64,000 nucleotides of DNA from Bacteroidia bacterium. Lineage in GTDB: Bacteria; Bacteroidota; Bacteroidia; SpSt-205. Under the pieces are notes generated by a model that saw only the letters and a list, made by a program, of their open reading frames with translations, made no database searches and was not told where the DNA came from. A program made the translations under genes and the position numbers. This document shows, one piece after another, positions 6,664-19,122 of the stretch. Positions within the stretch are counted from its first letter, which is position 1. Each line of letters opens with the position of its first letter. Location: assembly GCA_026003235.1 (NCBI GenBank), contig BPGW01000003.1, forward strand, positions 186,001 through 250,000, read 5' to 3'.

Positions 6664-7293
6664 ATGGGAAGGTGGGAAGTGCTGGGTGGCATACCCCACA
6701 AACGGGCCATCCTGAAGGCGGCCCAGGCTTTGCGGGAAGGTAAGCTGGTCCTGTATCCTACAGACACCACGTATGCCATCGGGTGTTTGCTCTCCCAGAA
6801 GGGGGCTTTTGAGACGCTGTGTCAGATCCGGCAGGTGCGGCCTGACAAAAGCTTGTTTTCGGCTTTCTTACCGGAGGTGGGCGCTATAGGCAAGTACGCT
6901 TTAGGGGTGGACACGCCTACTTATCGCCTCTTAAAGCGATTATGGCCGGGCCCTTACACGGTGATTTTGCGGGCAGGGCCGGCTATCCCTCGCCACCTTT
7001 GGCATCGTAAAACCATGGGGTTTCGCGTGACGGATTACCCCATCGTAAGCGCTCTCTTACAGGAAGTAGAGGAACCTATCGTGACGGCGGGCGTGCCGGA
7101 CGGCCAACTTGAACGCTACCTTTCGCAGGTGGCAGAAGCTCTGGATGCGGGGCCTCTGCCGGAAGGACTGCGCACCACCGTCTTAGACCTGAGCGAAGGC
7201 CTAAGCGCCCTCCGAGTCTTGCGTCGCGGTATCGGCCCCCTGACGGGATTGGAGCCCTTCCTCCTGAGCTCGCAGCCTTTCCAGGAAGCGTAA
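6664..7293 (+). CDS. Sua5/YciO/YrdC-family protein (threonylcarbamoyl-AMP synthase-like)
   Basis: The 209-residue YrdC-fold protein has the family start GKLVLYPTDTTYAIGC, then IRQVRPDK, a WPGPYTVIL strand and FRVTDYPI. The family makes threonylcarbamoyl-AMP from Thr, bicarbonate and ATP for the t6A modification of tRNAs decoding ANN codons. The short form with no C-terminal Sua5 domain and this pattern of motifs look closer to YciO than to TsaC, so the exact activity is inferred. TTG at 6661 is also possible; ATG at 6664 is preferred because of the box at 6651-6658. Confidence 0.83.
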   Translation: MGRWEVLGGIPHKRAILKAAQALREGKLVLYPTDTTYAIGCLLSQKGAFETLCQIRQVRPDKSLFSAFLPEVGAIGKYALGVDTPTYRLLKRLWPGPYTVILRAGPAIPRHLWHRKTMGFRVTDYPIVSALLQEVEEPIVTAGVPDGQLERYLSQVAEALDAGPLPEGLRTTVLDLSEGLSALRVLRRGIGPLTGLEPFLLSSQPFQEA

Positions 7294-7499
7294 AAGCACC
7301 TCTCTGGATACCCCCAGATCAAGCTGGCCCGTCTCACCAATGCGTACACACAGGTCCCCTCAATTCAGGGGGCAAGCGAATCGCTCGCCGCTTTCGGGCC
7401 CGGTTTTTCATCTCTTTCTGAAACAAAAAACCCCCGACAGTCCTCCATCTCCGGAGGAGGGTGGGGTAGCTTGTTTGGATTCATTCCAGAGAAAAGTCC

Positions 7500-7507
7500 T
7501 ACCTTTG
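7500..7507 (+). promoter_or_regulatory. -7 promoter box (TACCTTTG) of the HmuY-like/TonB operon
   Basis: The box lies 8 nt before the ATG at 7516. A TTTG lies about 22 bp upstream, at a spacing compatible with the Bacteroidota -33 element, which most other boxes in this window lack. Confidence 0.65.
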
Positions 7508-7515
7508 CCTGCGAT

Positions 7516-8766
7516 ATGCGCTACCCAATCAGACTTGTTACCGTAGCCCTCATGGGGGGCGTAGGCAGCTTTCTTGCTGCGCAGATTTCTGCAGTCCGCG
7601 ACACGATCGTCCTGGGGCCGGGGTATGCCAACCAGGTTTATTACAGCCTACAGAATGGAACGGTAGGTACGGCTCCTGCGGCGGGCTGGCATCTGGCTTT
7701 TGAGATCCCTATACGGGCGGCAGCCGTCCGTGCCAACCACGCAAGAGGCGTCACGGTCTACGCCACAAGCCGCGATACCAGCGGCTGGGCCGCCCTCTCT
7801 CTGAACGACACCACCTTCCGCCTATACAACGACAACTGCCGATGGAGTGTAGGGGCCTTCAACCAGACCGCTACCCCCAATAACCCCTTTGATGTGGGCT
7901 GGGGCAACTACAACCTCACCACCCACATCACCACGGGTGATTCCCTCTACATCGTGGCTATAGGCAGCACCTACAAAAAGCTCTGGATCCAGCGGCTTCA
8001 AGGCACCCAGTACTACCTGCGCACGGCCAACCTGGACGGCTCGCAGGACACCAGCTATGCGGTGGACAAATCGCTGGCTTCTGGGCGTGCCTTCATTTAC
8101 CTGAATCTCCTCACCCATCAAGTCCTCAACCTGGAGCCGGCGGCTTCGGAATGGGATCTGGTTTTCACACCGTACCTGGAGATCGTGTCAGGCACGCCGT
8201 ATCCCGTCACAGGGGTGCTACAAAATTCGCCTGTTCGCACGGCTAAGGTGGTGCTTACTTCCCCAGCGAATCCCGACACCCTCACGCCCAGCGCTTACGC
8301 TTTTGACAGCTGCGCGGCGAGCATCGGCTATGACTGGAAGCGGTTTGACATGAGCGCAAACAGCTTCGTGGTCGCGGATACCGTCTACTACCTTGTGCAA
8401 GATGAGCGGGGCAACCTGTGGCGCTTGCGGTTTCTTCGCTTTGAGGGCAGCAGCACTGGGCGGCTCGTCCTGGAAAAAGCCCTTTTGCGACAAGCCACCA
8501 GCTTGGCCAGCAGGCCGAACGCCGGCAGCTTGGCGGTATATCCCGTGCCTGCGCAGGAAAGCTTCCAGATAGAACTGCCCCAAGTGCCTTTTGCCGGAAA
8601 ACTCACCCTTCTGAACTCCTTGGGCCAAGTGGTGTGGCAGCAGCCTGTTGAGGCTACACAGGCCGTGATGGAGCTTGTCCGTCCGGCAGGCCTGCCCAAC
8701 GGGGTCTATGCGTTTCTCCTGGAAGGGGCAGCGGGCCGCTGGACCGGGAAAATGGTTTTCCAATAA
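7516..8766 (+). CDS. HmuY-like exported protein with T9SS type A sorting domain
   Basis: The 416-residue protein has a signal peptide ending LAAQIS and HmuY-like segments: a WHLAFEI strand near residue 58, WDLVFT near 215, and IGYDWKRFD near 270 followed by YYLVQDERGNLWRLRF. A C-terminal Por-type sorting domain (about residues 337-416) contains YPVPAQESF, LLNSLGQVVW and NGVYAFLL. HmuY of Porphyromonas is a secreted hemophore. Heme binding here is inferred, and I see no proven axial ligand pair. It should cross the outer membrane by T9SS. It is first in a three-gene operon with a heme-type TonB receptor and a second HmuY-like protein that shares IGYDWKR. Confidence 0.8.
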   Translation: MRYPIRLVTVALMGGVGSFLAAQISAVRDTIVLGPGYANQVYYSLQNGTVGTAPAAGWHLAFEIPIRAAAVRANHARGVTVYATSRDTSGWAALSLNDTTFRLYNDNCRWSVGAFNQTATPNNPFDVGWGNYNLTTHITTGDSLYIVAIGSTYKKLWIQRLQGTQYYLRTANLDGSQDTSYAVDKSLASGRAFIYLNLLTHQVLNLEPAASEWDLVFTPYLEIVSGTPYPVTGVLQNSPVRTAKVVLTSPANPDTLTPSAYAFDSCAASIGYDWKRFDMSANSFVVADTVYYLVQDERGNLWRLRFLRFEGSSTGRLVLEKALLRQATSLASRPNAGSLAVYPVPAQESFQIELPQVPFAGKLTLLNSLGQVVWQQPVEATQAVMELVRPAGLPNGVYAFLLEGAAGRWTGKMVFQ

Positions 8767-8767
8767 G

Positions 8768-10927
8768 ATGAAAGTCGGCCGGCTTTTCCTTCTTGTGGGG
8801 GCCGCCTGGGCTCAGGTGCTCTTTCTCCAAGACGAGGAAGGGCATCCTATAAGAGGAGCCCGGCTGCAGCTTACTCCTGCCGGAGGAGCCAAGCCGTTTT
8901 GGGTGGTTTCCGATAGCCTGGGCGGGGTTCAGGCCCCGCCCGGCACCTATCGGATAGAGGTACAAGCGGAAGGGTACTTGCCCTACCGGGAGACGATCAC
9001 CTTACCTGCCTCAGCGCCCGTGGTCCTTGAGAGGCCTGCCTACACGCTGGCAGACAAAGTCATTACAGGCCAGTATGCGCCTCTTGAGGAGCTGCGCAGT
9101 CTATACCCTGTGCGCGTTTTGACTGCGGAGCGCATCCAAGCCCAAGGTGCCCTGTACCTGCCTCAGCTTTTGGCCACCGAACTCAACACGCGGCTGTCCC
9201 AAGACCCTAATCTCGGTACTTTCGCCACCCTTCAGGGCTTGGGTGGGGAGCATGTGAAGGTCCTCATAGATGGGGTGCCTGTCATCGGGCGCGTTAGCGG
9301 AAGCGTGGACCTGGCTCAACTTCCTCTGGCGGAGGTAGAGAGGGTTGAAATCGTGGAAGGCCCCATGAGCGTGCTCTATGGGACCGATGCCTTGGGCGGG
9401 GTGATCAACCTTATCACCCGCCGCAGCCGCTGCCAATGGGAAACCCGAGGGCGCTTTCAGTACGAAGGGGTAGGGGTGTACGATGCAGGCTTTTCTGTAG
9501 CTGGCGGACCCCTCAAGCATCGGCTTCTGCTGGCAGGAGGGCGCTACTACTTTGATGGATGGGACCCCAACCCCCATCGCCTCCGAGCCCAACTTTGGAG
9601 GCCTCGGGAGCAGTACAATGCCCTCCTCTCGTATCAGTGGCGCCCCTCTGACCGCTTCCGTTTGCGCCTGCAAGCCCCTTTCTCGGACGAAACTTTCTTC
9701 AACCTCAAGGAACCTACCCTCACCCCCTATCGGGTCTACGCGCTTGATGAGTATTACTACACTCGGCGTTTTTTACCCTCGGTAGAAGTCACCTACGAAG
9801 CCAGCCCCCGATGGCGATGGGATCAGCAAGCGGCTTGGATGACCTATCGCCGCATCCGCCAGGTGGTCTATAAAGACCTTGTCACCTTGTCGGAGACGCT
9901 TGTTCCTCTGCCTGGGCAGCAAGATTCCACCCAGGAAACCCTTCTCTGGGCTCGGGGTGGGGTTACCTACAGCGGGCAGAAGCTCTCCTGGCAAGCGGGC
10001 CATGAGGTTCAACACACCGTGATGACGGGTGGGCGTATCCAGGGAGGGCGGGCGGAAATGGGAGATTATGCCCTTTGGGGCACGGCTGAGTGGGCGTTTT
10101 TGCCAGGGTGGGCCCTGCGACCAGGCTTTAGGATAGCCTACAACACCCGATACCGGGCCCCTTTTCTGCCGGCCCTCCATGTGCGCTGGAGCCCCTCCCC
10201 AACTTTCTCTTGGCGAATAGGCTACAGTCGCGGCTTTCGAGCCCCTTCCTTGCGGGAACAGTTTCTCTACCTGGTCTTCACCAACCACAACATCCAGGGC
10301 AATCCCAACCTCCGCCCCGAACGCAGCCACCACCTTCACACCAACTTCACTTGGAGCCGCCTCCATAAAGAGAGCCTGTTCCGTTGGCGTTTCTCCGCCT
10401 TTTGGAACGACCTGGAGGATGTGATCCAGCTTGTAATCGTGGATCCTGCGACGCTTTTCACCACTTACTATAACCTTCAGCGCTTTCAAACGCTGGGGCT
10501 ACAGCCTCGCTGGGAGATGCGCTACAAGGCTCTTTATGTCATGGCCGGCGCTACGGCCACTTGGTACAATCGTCAGACCTGGGGCTGGGAAGTGGCAGCG
10601 CAAACCACGTACGAGTGGAAAGGCTTCACAGCAGCGGCCTTCTTTAAGTTCCAGGGCCGTGTGCCTATCTTCCTGGCCCAGGAAGACGGCTCGGTGGCTT
10701 GGCGATGGATAGGGGGCTACCCTTGGCTTGATCTCTCTGTGGGGCGAGCGGTATGGCAGAAGCGCCTTCACCTCACCGCCGGCCTTCGGAATGTGGTGGG
10801 TGTGACCAGCGTCCAGGCCTCCCTCGGAGGAGGCGTGCATACCGGAGATGGCGTCAGCGCCCCGGTAGGCATGGGACGCTATCCCTTCGTGCGGGCCGAA
10901 CTGCATTTCCAAAAGGGCGAACTATGA
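8768..10927 (+). CDS. TonB-dependent outer-membrane receptor, heme/hemophore type
   Basis: The 719-residue receptor has a signal peptide ending GAAWAQV, an N-terminal carboxypeptidase-regulatory-like domain (about residues 20-85), a plug domain (about 110-220, with GLGGEHVKVLIDGVPV and VERVEIVEGPMSVLYG), and a barrel. In the barrel are FRAP and NPNL boxes with a His between them (FTNHN), the signature of heme receptors such as HmuR and HemR. ATG at 8768 is chosen because it begins the signal peptide, 1 nt after the previous stop; the frame itself is open further upstream. The stop overlaps the next gene as ATGA. Confidence 0.9.
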   Translation: MKVGRLFLLVGAAWAQVLFLQDEEGHPIRGARLQLTPAGGAKPFWVVSDSLGGVQAPPGTYRIEVQAEGYLPYRETITLPASAPVVLERPAYTLADKVITGQYAPLEELRSLYPVRVLTAERIQAQGALYLPQLLATELNTRLSQDPNLGTFATLQGLGGEHVKVLIDGVPVIGRVSGSVDLAQLPLAEVERVEIVEGPMSVLYGTDALGGVINLITRRSRCQWETRGRFQYEGVGVYDAGFSVAGGPLKHRLLLAGGRYYFDGWDPNPHRLRAQLWRPREQYNALLSYQWRPSDRFRLRLQAPFSDETFFNLKEPTLTPYRVYALDEYYYTRRFLPSVEVTYEASPRWRWDQQAAWMTYRRIRQVVYKDLVTLSETLVPLPGQQDSTQETLLWARGGVTYSGQKLSWQAGHEVQHTVMTGGRIQGGRAEMGDYALWGTAEWAFLPGWALRPGFRIAYNTRYRAPFLPALHVRWSPSPTFSWRIGYSRGFRAPSLREQFLYLVFTNHNIQGNPNLRPERSHHLHTNFTWSRLHKESLFRWRFSAFWNDLEDVIQLVIVDPATLFTTYYNLQRFQTLGLQPRWEMRYKALYVMAGATATWYNRQTWGWEVAAQTTYEWKGFTAAAFFKFQGRVPIFLAQEDGSVAWRWIGGYPWLDLSVGRAVWQKRLHLTAGLRNVVGVTSVQASLGGGVHTGDGVSAPVGMGRYPFVRAELHFQKGEL

Positions 10928-11895
10928 ACCGAATCCTCAGCTGGAGCCTTGTGATAGGCTTGTTTCTCGCGGCTTGCCGGCGTCCTGAAAAGCCTTGGCC
11001 GCTCCCGCCAGCCAGTTCTCATCGCTTTCTCCAAGCTCACGCCGGTCCTGAGTACGATACGGTGCTCTTTGTGCGGTTTGAGACGGGCGAACTGCACCGG
11101 GTTTTGCGTACCGCTTGGGACCTGGAGCTGAGGCCCAATCCCACCCGGGGCCTATACGAAGTCTGGCTCAATGCGGCCATGTACGCTTTTGCGCTGCCGC
11201 TGTCAGATTCTCTCTGGCAGAGCGTTCAAGCGCCTCCTCAAGACGGATGGCGGTGCGATCTGGCCGATACTGCGGCCTTACCCCCTCTGGCGCCTGGAGA
11301 GCGGCGGTATTTCCTCCTGGATCGCGACCGAGCGGAAGCCTTCTACAAAACCCCCGACCAGCGCTACCGAAAAATAGCCTTGTATTGGGAGGAAGGCCGC
11401 TTGCGCCTCACCGCTTATACGCTTACCAACGACCTTGTGGGGGAGATGGTGCTTTCGCTACCTACCCAGCCTGTGCATTTTTCGCTGGAAGGCGGGCTTC
11501 GGCAGGTGGCGGTGGAGCCCCCTTGGACGCCAGACCTGATCTTGACGCGGTATATCCACCCTTTTTACGACCAGCCAGAGCAATTCCGATGGTATCCGGT
11601 GTTGGGGGCCCTGATAGGCCCTCAAACCGAAGTAGCTATCGTCTCGGCCGCGGAAAAGCCCTTTGAGGAGTTCACCTATGCGGATGCTGCGGCGCGCTCT
11701 TACACCTCCCGTCGGGATGCGATAGGCTACGACTGGAAGCGGTACGACTTCAACACTGGCACGTATACTTTGGATTTCTCGCGTTACTTCGTCTTGCGTA
11801 CAAGCCCCACCTCTTACTACAAGCTGCGCTTTACGGACTTTTACGACACGCAGGGCCGCAAGGGCTGTGTACAGATAGAGTATTCGCCCTTGTAA
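10924..11895 (+). CDS. HmuY-like lipoprotein
   Basis: The 323-residue predicted lipoprotein has the lipobox FLAAC at about residues 14-18. The C-terminal third matches the HmuY pattern: YADAAARSYTSRRDAIGYDWKRYD, then a strand YFVLRTSPTSYYKLRF and FTDFYDTQGRKG. The IGYDWKR(F/Y)D segment is shared with the T9SS protein at the start of the operon, so both ends of the operon encode related binding proteins, one secreted through the outer membrane and one lipid-anchored. A role in ligand capture for the receptor between them is inferred. The ATG overlaps the receptor stop (ATGA). Confidence 0.8.
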   Translation: MNRILSWSLVIGLFLAACRRPEKPWPLPPASSHRFLQAHAGPEYDTVLFVRFETGELHRVLRTAWDLELRPNPTRGLYEVWLNAAMYAFALPLSDSLWQSVQAPPQDGWRCDLADTAALPPLAPGERRYFLLDRDRAEAFYKTPDQRYRKIALYWEEGRLRLTAYTLTNDLVGEMVLSLPTQPVHFSLEGGLRQVAVEPPWTPDLILTRYIHPFYDQPEQFRWYPVLGALIGPQTEVAIVSAAEKPFEEFTYADAAARSYTSRRDAIGYDWKRYDFNTGTYTLDFSRYFVLRTSPTSYYKLRFTDFYDTQGRKGCVQIEYSPL

Positions 11896-14646: not shown

Positions 14647-15480
14647 ATGGTTCGGGGTTGGGCATGGCTGGTGGTGTGGATGGTCGCGGCAAGCTGCCGG
14701 AAGGAAGCCTCACCGGAGCCAGGGTACAGGTTTGACTACCGGCTGGGGGAGGGGGTAGCCCCGGGTGAAACTTTTCCGCCGGGCATGGTGCTTTTTCTGG
14801 ATGCGTTTGAGACGCCGGACTCGGTGGTGCAAAGGCTGCGTGCCCAGGGTGTGCAGGTGATAGGCTACATTTCGGTGGGCACATGGGAGGCTTGGCGGCC
14901 GGATACAGGGTTGGTCCCCCCTTCCTTACGAGGTAAACCTTATCCCGGCTGGCCAGGAGAATACTTTGTAGACCTGAGGGACACAGCAGGCTTGGCTCTC
15001 TGGATTCGCCGCAGGCTGGATATGCTGCAGGCCAAAGGATTTGATGGGGTAGACCCCGATAACATAGACATCTACACCGCTGAAACGGGCTTTCCTTTGT
15101 CACAGGAAGATGTACTCCGGTTTGTCCGGTGGCTTGCAAGGAAGGCGCACGCCCGTGGACTGCGTATTGGCCAGAAAAATGCGCCAGAACTGGTGGATTC
15201 GCTGGTGGAAAGCTTAGACTTTGCGGTATTGGAGAGCGCTTTTACCAGTGGGATAGCTTCCGCCTACCAACCGTACCGCACAAAAGGCCGTCTCGTCTTT
15301 GCTGTGGAGTACACCGACGAGATGACGGTGCCTACCTTCAAGGCCCGGGTCTGTCCGCAGGCTCGGAAGCTGGGTTACGCCGCTATCCTCAAGAACCGTA
15401 ACCTGGATCGCTGGCGAGGTAAGCTGCCCATAAAGGCCGTTCGCTCTTTTCCGCTACCCCTCTTTCTTATTTACCTTTGA
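14647..15480 (+). CDS. GH114-like endo-alpha-1,4-polygalactosaminidase family lipoprotein
   Basis: The 277-residue predicted lipoprotein has the lipobox MVAASC near residue 17. The GH114 TIM-barrel pattern is present: VIGYISVGTWEAWRPD, then GKPYPGWPGEYFVDLRD, FDGVDPDNIDIY, a TGFPLS loop, AHARGLRIGQKN and a final DFAVLESAF strand. Fungal and bacterial relatives cleave galactosamine-containing exopolysaccharides. The acidic residues at the strand ends (DGVDPDN, LES) fit that catalysis, but the substrate here is unknown. It could turn over the cell's own exopolysaccharide or that of competitors. Confidence 0.82.
   Translation: MVRGWAWLVVWMVAASCRKEASPEPGYRFDYRLGEGVAPGETFPPGMVLFLDAFETPDSVVQRLRAQGVQVIGYISVGTWEAWRPDTGLVPPSLRGKPYPGWPGEYFVDLRDTAGLALWIRRRLDMLQAKGFDGVDPDNIDIYTAETGFPLSQEDVLRFVRWLARKAHARGLRIGQKNAPELVDSLVESLDFAVLESAFTSGIASAYQPYRTKGRLVFAVEYTDEMTVPTFKARVCPQARKLGYAAILKNRNLDRWRGKLPIKAVRSFPLPLFLIYL
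15472..15479 (+). promoter_or_regulatory. -7 promoter box (TACCTTTG) overlapping the GH114 stop codon
   Basis: The box encodes the last codons and part of the TGA of the preceding gene and ends 4 nt before the ATG at 15484. Confidence 0.65.
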
Positions 15481-15483
15481 GGT

Positions 15484-18400
15484 ATGCGTCGTTTGTTTCT
15501 ATGCTTTACGGCAGGGTTGCTGGGGAGCTGTGCAACCGAACAGGACCAAGTTCCTACCCCTTCCTCCTTGGCACCTTCGGGTATTCGTTACCCCGTTTCT
15601 CCCCCGGATACCCTTTTGCGGGGAGATACCTTAACTGAGGTTCTCTCTCAAGCTCCTGCGTTCAGATTGGTGCAAATGCAAAAGGATACCGTCGCTTGGG
15701 ATAGTGTTGGGATGGTATCCCTTTTGTGGGCATTTATGCGGGAAACCGTTCTAACAAATCAGCAATTTTGGGGGGAGCATTTGAGGCCTTATTTCGGGGA
15801 AGGGGTAGAGGTCCGACGAACTGAACTGCCTGTAAAGTTTGTCCGACAACCTTTTCGTTCACCCAAGTTTCAGCAGGCAGACAGGGTACAGATGGCGGAG
15901 GGCACTCTACTGCCGTTTACGCAGGTGACCCCTCCTCTCGGTCAAGTGCATACCTCGCTCCATACGGGGTTGGCAGACAAGCGGGGACGGGTATGGTTGG
16001 CTTCAGAGGAAGGGCTCCATACTTGGACAGGCAAAGGCTTTTTTTCGTGGGGGATTGCGGAGGGGCTCCCTACAGGTACCATTTTTCGCCTGGCTGAGGA
16101 CGGGAAAGGACGCCTTTGGATTACTGGCAGCCAAGGTATAAGCTACTTCTGGGAAGGGCACTTTTATCGGCTGGTAAGCGCAACCTCCGGCGAAGCTGTC
16201 GAGCTTTCCTCCACTTACGTGGTGGCAGACTCTGCAGGCGATGTATTTGTGGGGCTGCGTAGAGATACCAGTACGGCTTCGGCGTATCTCTTTGAGTGGC
16301 ACCAAGAAAAGGGCTATCAGCTAACCTTCCCCGGCTTTCAGCTGTGCCTTCCTTTGCGAAGGGCGGAAGAGGGGCTATGGTGCAGTTGTTTAGCAAGGGG
16401 GACCAATCGGGCGGTGGTCGGGCTGTATCGGGAAGGACGGTTCTACCCGCTCCAAGGGTGGGAGGGGCGGCTCCTGGCCTTAGAACTGTGCGCCGCTCCA
16501 GGTGATACCCTATGGATCGCGAACCGAGAAGGGTTATGGCTCTGGACAAAGGGCAAAAGTGCTTTGGTAGTGCCTGGGAAAGCCTCTCACTTATATCGGT
16601 GGGGAGAGCGCCGACTCCTTTGGCTACACCAAGGCGAGTGGTGGGTATGGACCGGAGAAAAGGCTTTTCCTTTGCCCCTAAACCTCCCCCGAGAACCGCT
16701 TTCGGCCTTGCTTTATCGGCCCTCCCACCGGGAATGGCTCACCTTGAGTGAAAAAGGCAGCATGGGGGTCCTTCACACAGCGGGCCCCCTCGCCATACCC
16801 CTCAGGCATCTCATCGGAAAAGATGAATGGGCTTTTGCTGTGGCCGTGGATTCCAGCCAGCGCCTCTGGATAGGCACAGAACAAAGCGGCCTTTATGTGA
16901 TACATCCCACTGGCCATTGTGAAAAACTATACTTATCTGACCAAAATACTTTGCCAAACTTAGAAAGCATTTACCGCATAGAAGTGCACCCATCGCGAGG
17001 CTTGTGGATCGCTTGGTATGGCAAAGGAGCGGTAAACGCCCTTTTTTCTACCTGGTTGGAACCTAACTCTGTTCAGCTTCAAGCTACCCTTCCTTTTAAG
17101 GAGTCTTTTTACTCTGTGGCTAAGATGCCCCAAAGGGAGCTGTGGTGGCTTACCAATGGAAAAGGCCTCTATGTAGGCCAGCTGGGAAGGAAGCCCCAAC
17201 TTGTTCTGCAAGCGGACTTGACTTCGGGGTTCTTTCGGGATAATCAAGGCCGACTATGGATTGGAGGGAGGAAAGGCCAGCTGTACTGCTGGACGGGTAG
17301 TCACCTTGTGCGGTTTTCTCTGCCAGATAGCCAAGCTTGGGTACTCAGCCTTACGCAAGATCAAGAGGGAAAGCTTTGGGTGGGTACGCATAGCTCGGGA
17401 GTTTACCGATGGGAAGGGGGGTATTGGCGGGCTTGGGGCCGTTCGGAGGGTTTGGCGGGTGCTTTGGTGGCGCAGCTCACCAGCACTGGCCAATGGGTCC
17501 TGGCAGGAACCGAAGCTGGCCTCTCTGTCTTCCAACAGCATACGCAAGGTCCTCCTGTCCACCGCAGAATCTACACAGGCTACTTAGGGGGTGTCAATGG
17601 CGGACGGCTCTACCAAGCGCATGCTTGGCAGCAAAACCCTACGGCCCTCCTTCCTGAGCCCACTTGGCTCTCCGGTATGGGCACTTCCCTCGTCATGATT
17701 CCCCAGCGGATGCTGCCATTGCCCTCGCCTCCTCAGCCCTACTTCGCAGCCATCCAGGTAGGCGAGTCGTTCTGGGCTGCCGAAGGGGAAGAACCGCCTA
17801 CAGCAGGGCCTTTTCCTGCTCCCCTTGCTTTGCCCGCCACCCTGGAGCTGCCTCACGGAGGAGGAGCCTTGCGCTTCGTCCTCGGATACCAAGGGCCCTT
17901 CGTATGGCCCCAGGAAGTAGAGTACAGCTTTCGTCTGGGCGGAGCCGAAGAGGCTTGGAGCCCACCCACCCCTGAAGCCCAAGTGGTTTACCAAAAACTG
18001 GCCCCAGGCACCTATACCTTAGAAGTGCGCGCCCGCTACGCCGGAGGGCCTTGGAGCGAGCCTGTAGCGTATAGCTTTCGGATTTTGCCGCCCTGGTGGC
18101 TTAGTGGATGGGCTTTTCTCGGGTATGGGCTTCTTTTAGCGGCGGGGGTGTGGGGAGTGGTGCGTTGGCGAACCGCCGCCCTACGCCGCCGTGCCCAAGA
18201 GCTGGCCCAAAAAGTCGCTGAAGCAACCCAAGAATTACTTGCAAAAAACCAAGAGCTTGCCGAAAAAAATAGCCTTCTTGAGAAGCAAAACCAGATCATA
18301 TCGGAACAAAAATTTGAAATAGAAGCTAAAAATGCTGACCTCCTAAGCAGCATATCTTATGCCCAGCGCATCCAAAAAGCTTTGCTTCCCTCCTTTTCTG

Positions 18401-19122
18401 TCGTTCAACACTACCTGCCTAATAGCTTTCTTTTCTGGCAACCCAGAGACATTGTGAGTGGTGATGTTTATGGAGTTCAGCTCATCCAAGTAGCTGATTT
18501 GCAGCGGCTGTATCTCCTTGTAGCGGATTGTACGGGGCACGGAGTGCCTGGGGCTTTTGTAAGCCTTCTTACACTTACCACTTTTACGCGCACGCTTACA
18601 GAGTACGGATTGGATAGTCCAGATGAGATTTTTACGCTGATGGCGCACCAGTTGACACAACTTTTACATCCAGATGCGACCACGCAAGTGCGAGATGGCT
18701 TTGAAGGTGTGCTGCTGCAGATGGAGTGGAAAGGTGACCAGATGCGGAAAGAGATTGTCTATGCTGCGGCGCGTTCTCCCTTTTGGTTGGTACGTCAAGG
18801 CGAGGTAATAGAGCTACGAGCCGATCCCTACCCTGTAGGCCCTCCGGAGATAGAGTCGGCGACTCTTCCCACCTTCACCCGACGGAGTGTAGAGCTTCAG
18901 TCAGGCGATTGGCTCTACTTTAGTTCCGATGGCTTTCCTGACCAGATAGGGGGACCTCGCCAACGCAAGTTTGGCTATAAGGCCTTCCGTGCCCTCGTGG
19001 CTGAGCTAAGCTCGCTGCCAGCCCCCCTCCAAGCCCAGCGATTAGCTGAAATCCTCAACGAATGGCGAGGCCCCTTGCCTCAGGTGGATGATGTGCTGGT
19101 GATAGGGTTTCAGGTTCCTTAG
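15484..19122 (+). CDS. Propeller-type sensor with SpoIIE (PP2C) phosphatase output
   Basis: The 1212-residue protein begins with a lipobox-like signal (GLLGSC). It continues with a long beta-propeller of two-component-regulator type repeats (RLWITGSQG, LWIANREGLW, RLWIGTEQSGLYV, KLWVGTHSSGVY), a Y_Y_Y domain (about 775-865, ending SYSFRI/AYSFRILPPWW), and one TM segment (about 870-892). A coiled coil (895-950) and a SpoIIE phosphatase domain (952-1212; IVSGDVYG, VADCTGHGVPGAF, SSDGFPDQ) follow. A periplasmic signal is therefore converted to Ser/Thr dephosphorylation in the cytoplasm, probably on an anti-sigma-antagonist, none of which is encoded nearby. Its stop overlaps the convergent adaptor gene. 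Confidence 0.88.
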   Translation: MRRLFLCFTAGLLGSCATEQDQVPTPSSLAPSGIRYPVSPPDTLLRGDTLTEVLSQAPAFRLVQMQKDTVAWDSVGMVSLLWAFMRETVLTNQQFWGEHLRPYFGEGVEVRRTELPVKFVRQPFRSPKFQQADRVQMAEGTLLPFTQVTPPLGQVHTSLHTGLADKRGRVWLASEEGLHTWTGKGFFSWGIAEGLPTGTIFRLAEDGKGRLWITGSQGISYFWEGHFYRLVSATSGEAVELSSTYVVADSAGDVFVGLRRDTSTASAYLFEWHQEKGYQLTFPGFQLCLPLRRAEEGLWCSCLARGTNRAVVGLYREGRFYPLQGWEGRLLALELCAAPGDTLWIANREGLWLWTKGKSALVVPGKASHLYRWGERRLLWLHQGEWWVWTGEKAFPLPLNLPREPLSALLYRPSHREWLTLSEKGSMGVLHTAGPLAIPLRHLIGKDEWAFAVAVDSSQRLWIGTEQSGLYVIHPTGHCEKLYLSDQNTLPNLESIYRIEVHPSRGLWIAWYGKGAVNALFSTWLEPNSVQLQATLPFKESFYSVAKMPQRELWWLTNGKGLYVGQLGRKPQLVLQADLTSGFFRDNQGRLWIGGRKGQLYCWTGSHLVRFSLPDSQAWVLSLTQDQEGKLWVGTHSSGVYRWEGGYWRAWGRSEGLAGALVAQLTSTGQWVLAGTEAGLSVFQQHTQGPPVHRRIYTGYLGGVNGGRLYQAHAWQQNPTALLPEPTWLSGMGTSLVMIPQRMLPLPSPPQPYFAAIQVGESFWAAEGEEPPTAGPFPAPLALPATLELPHGGGALRFVLGYQGPFVWPQEVEYSFRLGGAEEAWSPPTPEAQVVYQKLAPGTYTLEVRARYAGGPWSEPVAYSFRILPPWWLSGWAFLGYGLLLAAGVWGVVRWRTAALRRRAQELAQKVAEATQELLAKNQELAEKNSLLEKQNQIISEQKFEIEAKNADLLSSISYAQRIQKALLPSFSVVQHYLPNSFLFWQPRDIVSGDVYGVQLIQVADLQRLYLLVADCTGHGVPGAFVSLLTLTTFTRTLTEYGLDSPDEIFTLMAHQLTQLLHPDATTQVRDGFEGVLLQMEWKGDQMRKEIVYAAARSPFWLVRQGEVIELRADPYPVGPPEIESATLPTFTRRSVELQSGDWLYFSSDGFPDQIGGPRQRKFGYKAFRALVAELSSLPAPLQAQRLAEILNEWRGPLPQVDDVLVIGFQVP

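Follow-up and report, generated by a model that had tools for sequence, protein, structure and literature searches.

The genes for HY1, a TonB-dependent receptor and HY2 form a compact operon of three open reading frames, all on the + strand of the window (the whole stretch of 64,000 nucleotides that was analyzed). Its probable function is heme uptake, in which HY1, with a predicted export by T9SS, and HY2, with a predicted lipid anchor, would serve one and the same receptor as paralogues. The preliminary description had placed HmuY-like proteins on both sides of the receptor in one operon and this layout holds, as the coordinates are right (Table 1) and both proteins match the HmuY family in fold. 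HY1 and the receptor are separated by a single base, and HY2 overlaps the receptor stop by four bases. None of the neighbouring window genes that were tested is a heme gene. At 14647-15480, the window carries a GH114 family lipoprotein-like gene, which adjoins a large SpoIIE-phosphatase propeller sensor at 15484-19122.

Table 1. Features of the operon and its upstream region (window coordinates).
Feature	Position	Strand	Description
Imperfect palindrome TTTGGATT-N-ANTCCANA	7474..7490	+	Putative operator overlapping the -33 region; conserved upstream of HY1
TACCTTTG, Bacteroidota-type -7 box (TAnnTTTG)	7500..7507	+	Downstream of the palindrome
HY1	7516..8766	+	416 aa; signal peptide, HmuY-like body, sorting domain; HmuY fold, predicted T9SS export
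HY1 HmuY-like body, residues 24-328	7585..8499	+	VIA-align against seven HmuY-family entries, Z 11.7-14.0
HY1 T9SS type A C-terminal sorting domain, residues 329-416	8500..8763	+	Fold match Z 8.1-8.6; TIGR04183
TonB-dependent receptor	8768..10927	+	719 aa; N-terminal CarboxypepD_reg-like extension, plug, barrel
Receptor FRAP...His507...NPNL box, residues 490-515	10235..10312	+	Alignment of receptors
HY2	10924..11895	+	323 aa; lipoprotein with HmuY fold
HY2 lipobox cysteine, residue 18	10975..10977	+	C in 26/26 N-terminally complete homologues

Structure prediction and superposition on HmuY, which had been suggested as a check, matched the fold for both proteins, and an unlike fold appeared for neither of them. 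The HY2 model (mean pLDDT 88.5) gave ten Foldseek matches at E<=0.001, all of them from the HmuY family, and VIA-align placed it on eight HmuY-family entries (Z 10.8-14.2, rmsd 2.8-4.5, 130-152 residues), with the next row at Z 4.9. For the HY1 model (mean pLDDT 84.7), VIA-align found seven HmuY-family entries (Z 11.7-14.0, rmsd 3.0-4.2, 132-160 residues); in Foldseek alone, the HmuY entries ranked lower (E 0.002-0.009, probability 0.90-1.00). Using the Pfam HmuY profile (PF14064, cut-off 27 bits), HY2 scores over the cut-off (29.3 bits) and HY1 under it (24.4 bits), and among relatives the profile is detected at E<=0.01 in 27 of 27 HY2 and 14 of 25 HY1 proteins. Besides, the likeness of HY1 and HY2 that had been noticed around IGYDWKR(F/Y)D goes beyond chance, with a BLASTP E value of 2e-8 and a profile-profile match of the C-terminal halves at 99.6% probability (E 6e-25, 120 columns). 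HY1 and HY2 are ancient paralogues that are inherited together. In a quick tree of 81 bodies with SH-aLRT as the only support measure, from which the HY1 sorting domain was removed first and in which labels were given by profile score, one branch divides 41 HY1 from 40 HY2 (SH-aLRT 99).

Each of the two proteins exceeds HmuY by an extra ~130-150 residues. Both halves of HY1 and of HY2 align with HmuY-family N-termini, and the second half of HY1 matches the first half of HY2 moderately (81% probability, 55 columns); these alignments hint at an internal HmuY duplication. We did not accept that HmuY is completely duplicated in tandem within the two proteins, as the half-to-half matches within the proteins are weak (24-26 columns, probability 8-25%). 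Likewise, the extra segment of HY2 was compared with the Riemerella hemophore RhuH (8xjc), and this assignment was dropped with a match of only Z 4.3 over 75 residues; in the accessible part of their article, the authors of RhuH call it unlike HmuY (PMC11967795).

The proposed T9SS export of HY1 is supported by i) a C-terminal sorting domain and ii) the T9SS core protein SprA. The last 89 residues of HY1 match the T9SS CTDs of mirolase (Z 8.6), NucA (Z 8.5) and RemA (Z 8.1), and other immunoglobulin-like domains reach Z 9.1 on the same residues. The profile of the type A sorting domain (TIGR04183) gives 19.1 bits on window HY1, under its cut-off of 23, and is found at E<=0.01 in all 25 HY1 homologues. 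SprA, from which alone the presence of T9SS was judged, is encoded in 11 of the 12 genomes of the window's family, among them that of the window itself (SprA_N 434 bits in G000). The further claim that HY1 is released into the medium is not supported, since type A T9SS cargo of P. gingivalis often stays on the cell surface. For the T9SS secretion of Flavobacterium columnare HmuY, Thunes et al. 2022 is said to be the source.

HY2 is predicted to be a lipid-anchored protein, in agreement with the earlier proposal. Its signal peptide ends in the lipobox LAAC with Cys18, and the cysteine is present in all 26 complete N-termini (the partial HY2 of G001, L051/L083, was kept in the alignments and outside the N-terminal counts). 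According to the accessible text of PMC5080379, the export signal of Bacteroidota surface lipoproteins is C-x-K-(D/E)2. This signal fits HY2 of 11 of 16 relatives outside the window genus and 0 of 10 within it, where C-R-R/K/H-P/A-E-K is found instead. HY2 may be exposed at the cell surface, which for the window genus is a tentative assignment, because the window protein has the N-terminus CRRPEK and hence does not carry C-x-K-(D/E)2. The search for axial His/Met pairs found no conserved candidate in HY2: at the residue aligned with HmuY His166 (F276), none of 27 sequences has His and 24 have F or Q, a counterpart of His134 was not mappable, and the alignment has no conserved His, Met or Cys except the lipobox cysteine. 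This result is not decisive, because HfpY of Flavobacterium psychrophilum binds heme despite a similar divergence. As far as the two papers are openly accessible, HfpY binds heme 1:1 in spite of its low similarity to HmuY (PMC9331221), and members of the HmuY family differ in their heme ligands (PMC6200708).

The FRAP and NPNL boxes with a His between them, which had been noted in the receptor, are present (FRAP 490-493, His507, NPNL 512-515), and F490, R491, P493 and H507 are invariant in ten of ten receptors, A492 nearly so. We dropped them as a proof of heme, because the receptor scores higher with the B12 profile: the best family profile is TonB-B12 with 107.6 bits, far below its cut-off of 599.7, and TonB-hemin (TIGR01785) gives 88.6 bits, far below its cut-off of 316.85. 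Together with the high rank of BtuB among the solved relatives of the receptor, these scores would fit an uptake of cobalamin, another tetrapyrrole or a siderophore by means of HmuY-fold proteins. A PD40 beta-propeller gene that follows HY2 in many relatives points the same way, as BtuG is also a propeller. Nevertheless, such a substrate is quite improbable: FecCD permeases, which include BtuC, were found in none of the 12 family genomes, which argues against a BtuCD route, and the loci of relatives carry HemS and heme-type ABC genes.

Heme, which had been put forward with reserve, is the likely ligand of the HY1/receptor/HY2 unit, and judged from gene content this assignment can be argued well. 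Seven relatives' loci, out of 20 regions examined, include a HmuTUV-type importer together with HemS. In L171-L175, the genes are arranged as receptor-HY2-HmuT-HmuU-HmuV-methyltransferase-HemS-ChaN with HY1 divergent nearby; the transport genes encode a periplasmic binding protein, a FecCD permease and a heme-type ATPase, and a HemS/ChuX-type gene follows the methyltransferase. The ATPase of L171 reaches 283.5 bits against a heme-transporter cut-off of 261, and HemS and ChaN also pass theirs (the family assignments were made in L171 and transferred to the other four loci by BLAST). G174 (L165) has HY1-HmuT-HmuU-HmuV-HemS-receptor on a single strand, where Pfam confirmed both HemS and the binding protein, and in G117 (L166) HemS-HmuTUV lies on the strand opposite to a complete triad.

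Within the window's family, ferrochelatase and ALAD were each detected in 0 of 12 genomes and a heme-copper oxidase (COX1) in 12 of 12, with the controls for ferrochelatase, ALAD and COX1 being positive in 8, 11 and 8 of 14, in that order. In the simplest reading, the family appears to be a heme auxotroph that must import heme: since there is apparently no heme synthesis and heme-copper oxidases are kept, the cells would need heme uptake. As FecCD is missing, the inner-membrane step of the relatives is absent in this family. Across the phylum, ALAD is missing in 8 of 17 genomes with HY1, in 4 of 22 that have HY2 only and in 1 of 28 that have neither protein. We did not count this link between HY1 and the absence of ALAD as evidence, because it is confounded by class: each of the 9 genomes that do not belong to the window's class is without ALAD, and the survey has no HY1/HY2-free control from outside the class.

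HY1, the receptor and HY2 occur together in 10 of the 12 family genomes. Of these twelve, 8 are at least 90% complete; G011 (81% complete) has none of the three, and G001 has its partial HY2 at a contig end. These genomes are 'Bacteroidia bacterium' MAGs (SKW, SKYB, KatS3mg025), and from the isolate names we presume a hot-spring origin. When contigs were scanned with the HY2 alignment, 27 loci were obtained, of which 17 lie outside the window genus and its nearest kin; the set favours close kin because it was found by HY2 peptide patterns. Outside the genus, all 14 non-truncated loci have the order HY1-receptor-HY2; this count leaves out L088 and L095, which are truncated within the receptor, and L100, which is 3.7 kb long. 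The genes around the distant triad loci were typed in L084, and their types were transferred to the other loci through BLAST clusters; most are housekeeping genes (DnaK, RecO, FBPase, amino acid kinase) and hence give no clue to the ligand.

Among 394 Bacteroidota genomes sampled, full-length HY1 is present in 17. HY2 lies within ~4 kb of HY1 in ten of these (G000, G244, G208, G117, G326, G320, G024, G343, G107, G222), elsewhere or on another contig in three (G347, G029, G121) and was not detected in four (G035, G180, G174, G170); 22 further genomes have HY2 matches, some of them weak, without full-length HY1. Receptor and HY2 are divergent from HY1 in five genomes, G208 has HY1-HY2 with no receptor detected, L178-L180 have receptor-HY2 only with no HY1, and in G174 and G170 HY1 stands beside a receptor with no HY2 detected. 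The triad is therefore recurrent but separable.

Some of these loci contain additional genes. A PD40 beta-propeller protein of about 370-430 aa is encoded after HY2 in 14 of 16 distant loci (L084-L090, L093-L099) and in L161, and in L163 and L164 the propeller gene adjoins HY1 even where neither receptor nor HY2 was detected; it is possibly a fourth part of the unit. Each of the five divergent loci encodes, between HY1 and the receptor, another T9SS-sorted protein, of the choice-of-anchor J type (L171 8158-9009, with counterparts in L172-L175). In G326 (L169), HY1 and the receptor are separated by genes for a DNA methyltransferase and a protein of 227 aa at 7090-8782.

For the mechanism of uptake, HY1 would cross the outer membrane by T9SS, while HY2 would be held in this membrane by its lipid. 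The most likely role of HY1 is to capture heme on the cell surface or farther out; the adjoining TonB-dependent receptor would import the heme, and HY2 may act at the receptor as a second carrier, dock or lid. An ordered relay, in which HY1 takes up heme outside and hands it to HY2 and from there to the receptor, had been suggested before, and its direction is not supported; HY1 and HY2 also occur apart, and HY2 has no conserved His or Met. We consider such a relay possible but rather doubtful. It would agree with the presence of a secreted and an anchored paralogue at the same receptor, with the single HY1/HY2 split in the tree and with the conserved gene order outside the genus. It would also agree with the distribution of histidines, as HY1 keeps H59 (21/25), H75 (21/25) and H137 (24/25) at high frequency and HY2 keeps none; HY1 and HY2 are therefore not equivalent. 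However, receptor loci with HY1 only and with HY2 only argue against an obligate chain. These same loci would be expected if both proteins worked in parallel and each brought heme, or different forms of heme or hemoproteins, to the same receptor with no handover. The openly accessible text of PMC12106395 (section 3.1) likewise lists genomes with two or three HmuY homologues. Parallel work can be proposed only tentatively, and it does not account for the conservation of order and pairing among distant Bacteroidota. Rather unlikely, in our estimate, is a third arrangement, in which HY1 carries heme via H59, H75 and H137 of its N-terminal half and HY2 is not a hemophore, serving as a receptor-bound dock for loaded HY1.

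Upstream of HY1, the probable heme-uptake operon is preceded by an imperfect palindrome. Among the 182 loci examined, the sequence TTTGGATTNANTCCA occurs only in front of HY1, in the window and in 8 congeners. Allowing up to 2 mismatches, 0.29 matches are expected in the window, and a single site was found, once per strand. The palindrome columns are invariant in 9 of 9 aligned upstream regions, and the palindrome is missing in a tenth locus, L047, which is cut near the contig end. A regulator bound to the palindrome may control the operon; we take the shape to be compatible with a Fur box. The motif TAnnTTTG, which we take as the Bacteroidota -7 consensus, stands at -15/-16 in 6 of 9 congeners; it occurs 20 times on the + strand of the window, with 0.0125 expected per 40 bases. 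Besides, 5 of 9 congeners have a TAnnTTTG box 14-15 bases ahead of the start of the receptor gene, where the window has none; in those congeners it could be an internal promoter.

In comparison with known systems, the locus resembles HmuY-HmuR of P. gingivalis (hmuYRSTUV) in the HmuY fold, the lipoprotein and the adjoining TonB-dependent heme receptor. It differs in that P. gingivalis has one HmuY per operon with bis-His heme ligation, whereas here there are two longer paralogues, HY2 has no His at the His166 position and the window's family has no FecCD importer. HmuY of F. columnare (C6N29_01035) combines a HmuY domain with a T9SS sorting domain, as HY1 does; in the accessible text it is reported as T9SS-secreted and, unlike the HY1/HY2 pair, described as a single HmuY, and its deletion caused no growth defect in the media tested (PMC9618737). 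The receptor HfpR of F. psychrophilum is co-transcribed with a diverged HmuY, similar to the situation here, but the part of the article open to readers describes one HmuY and a DoxX-family gene in between (PMC9331221). In the hmu operon of P. endodontalis, a T9SS-sorted protein (POREN0001_0445) is encoded upstream of hmuY and reported to belong to the operon, but in contrast to HY1 the available text describes it as beta-barrel-like and not as HmuY (PMC11208336). The statement that typical HmuY loci have one hemophore is broadly right, while genomes with several HmuY and a T9SS-secreted HmuY are already published. HmuY with HmuR, several HmuY per genome and T9SS-secreted HmuY are known; what is new is that a HmuY with predicted T9SS export and a lipoprotein HmuY are paired at the same receptor, in an operon preceded by a conserved palindrome. 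We recognised no description of such a pair at one receptor in the openly available literature.

In its openly available part, the HmuY literature deals mainly with pathogens and commensals of hosts, where each operon has a single lipoprotein HmuY. Our data add a widely inherited three-gene unit with two HmuY types from Bacteroidota that are represented by environmental genomes; one of these lineages apparently relies on external heme. This raises the question how heme passes the inner membrane without a FecCD importer. If HY2 should indeed be a dock for loaded HY1, the operon would represent a dedicated two-part heme delivery in heme-auxotrophic free-living Bacteroidota that manage without this importer. 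In any case, the locus makes a cooperation between two HmuY proteins at one receptor testable.
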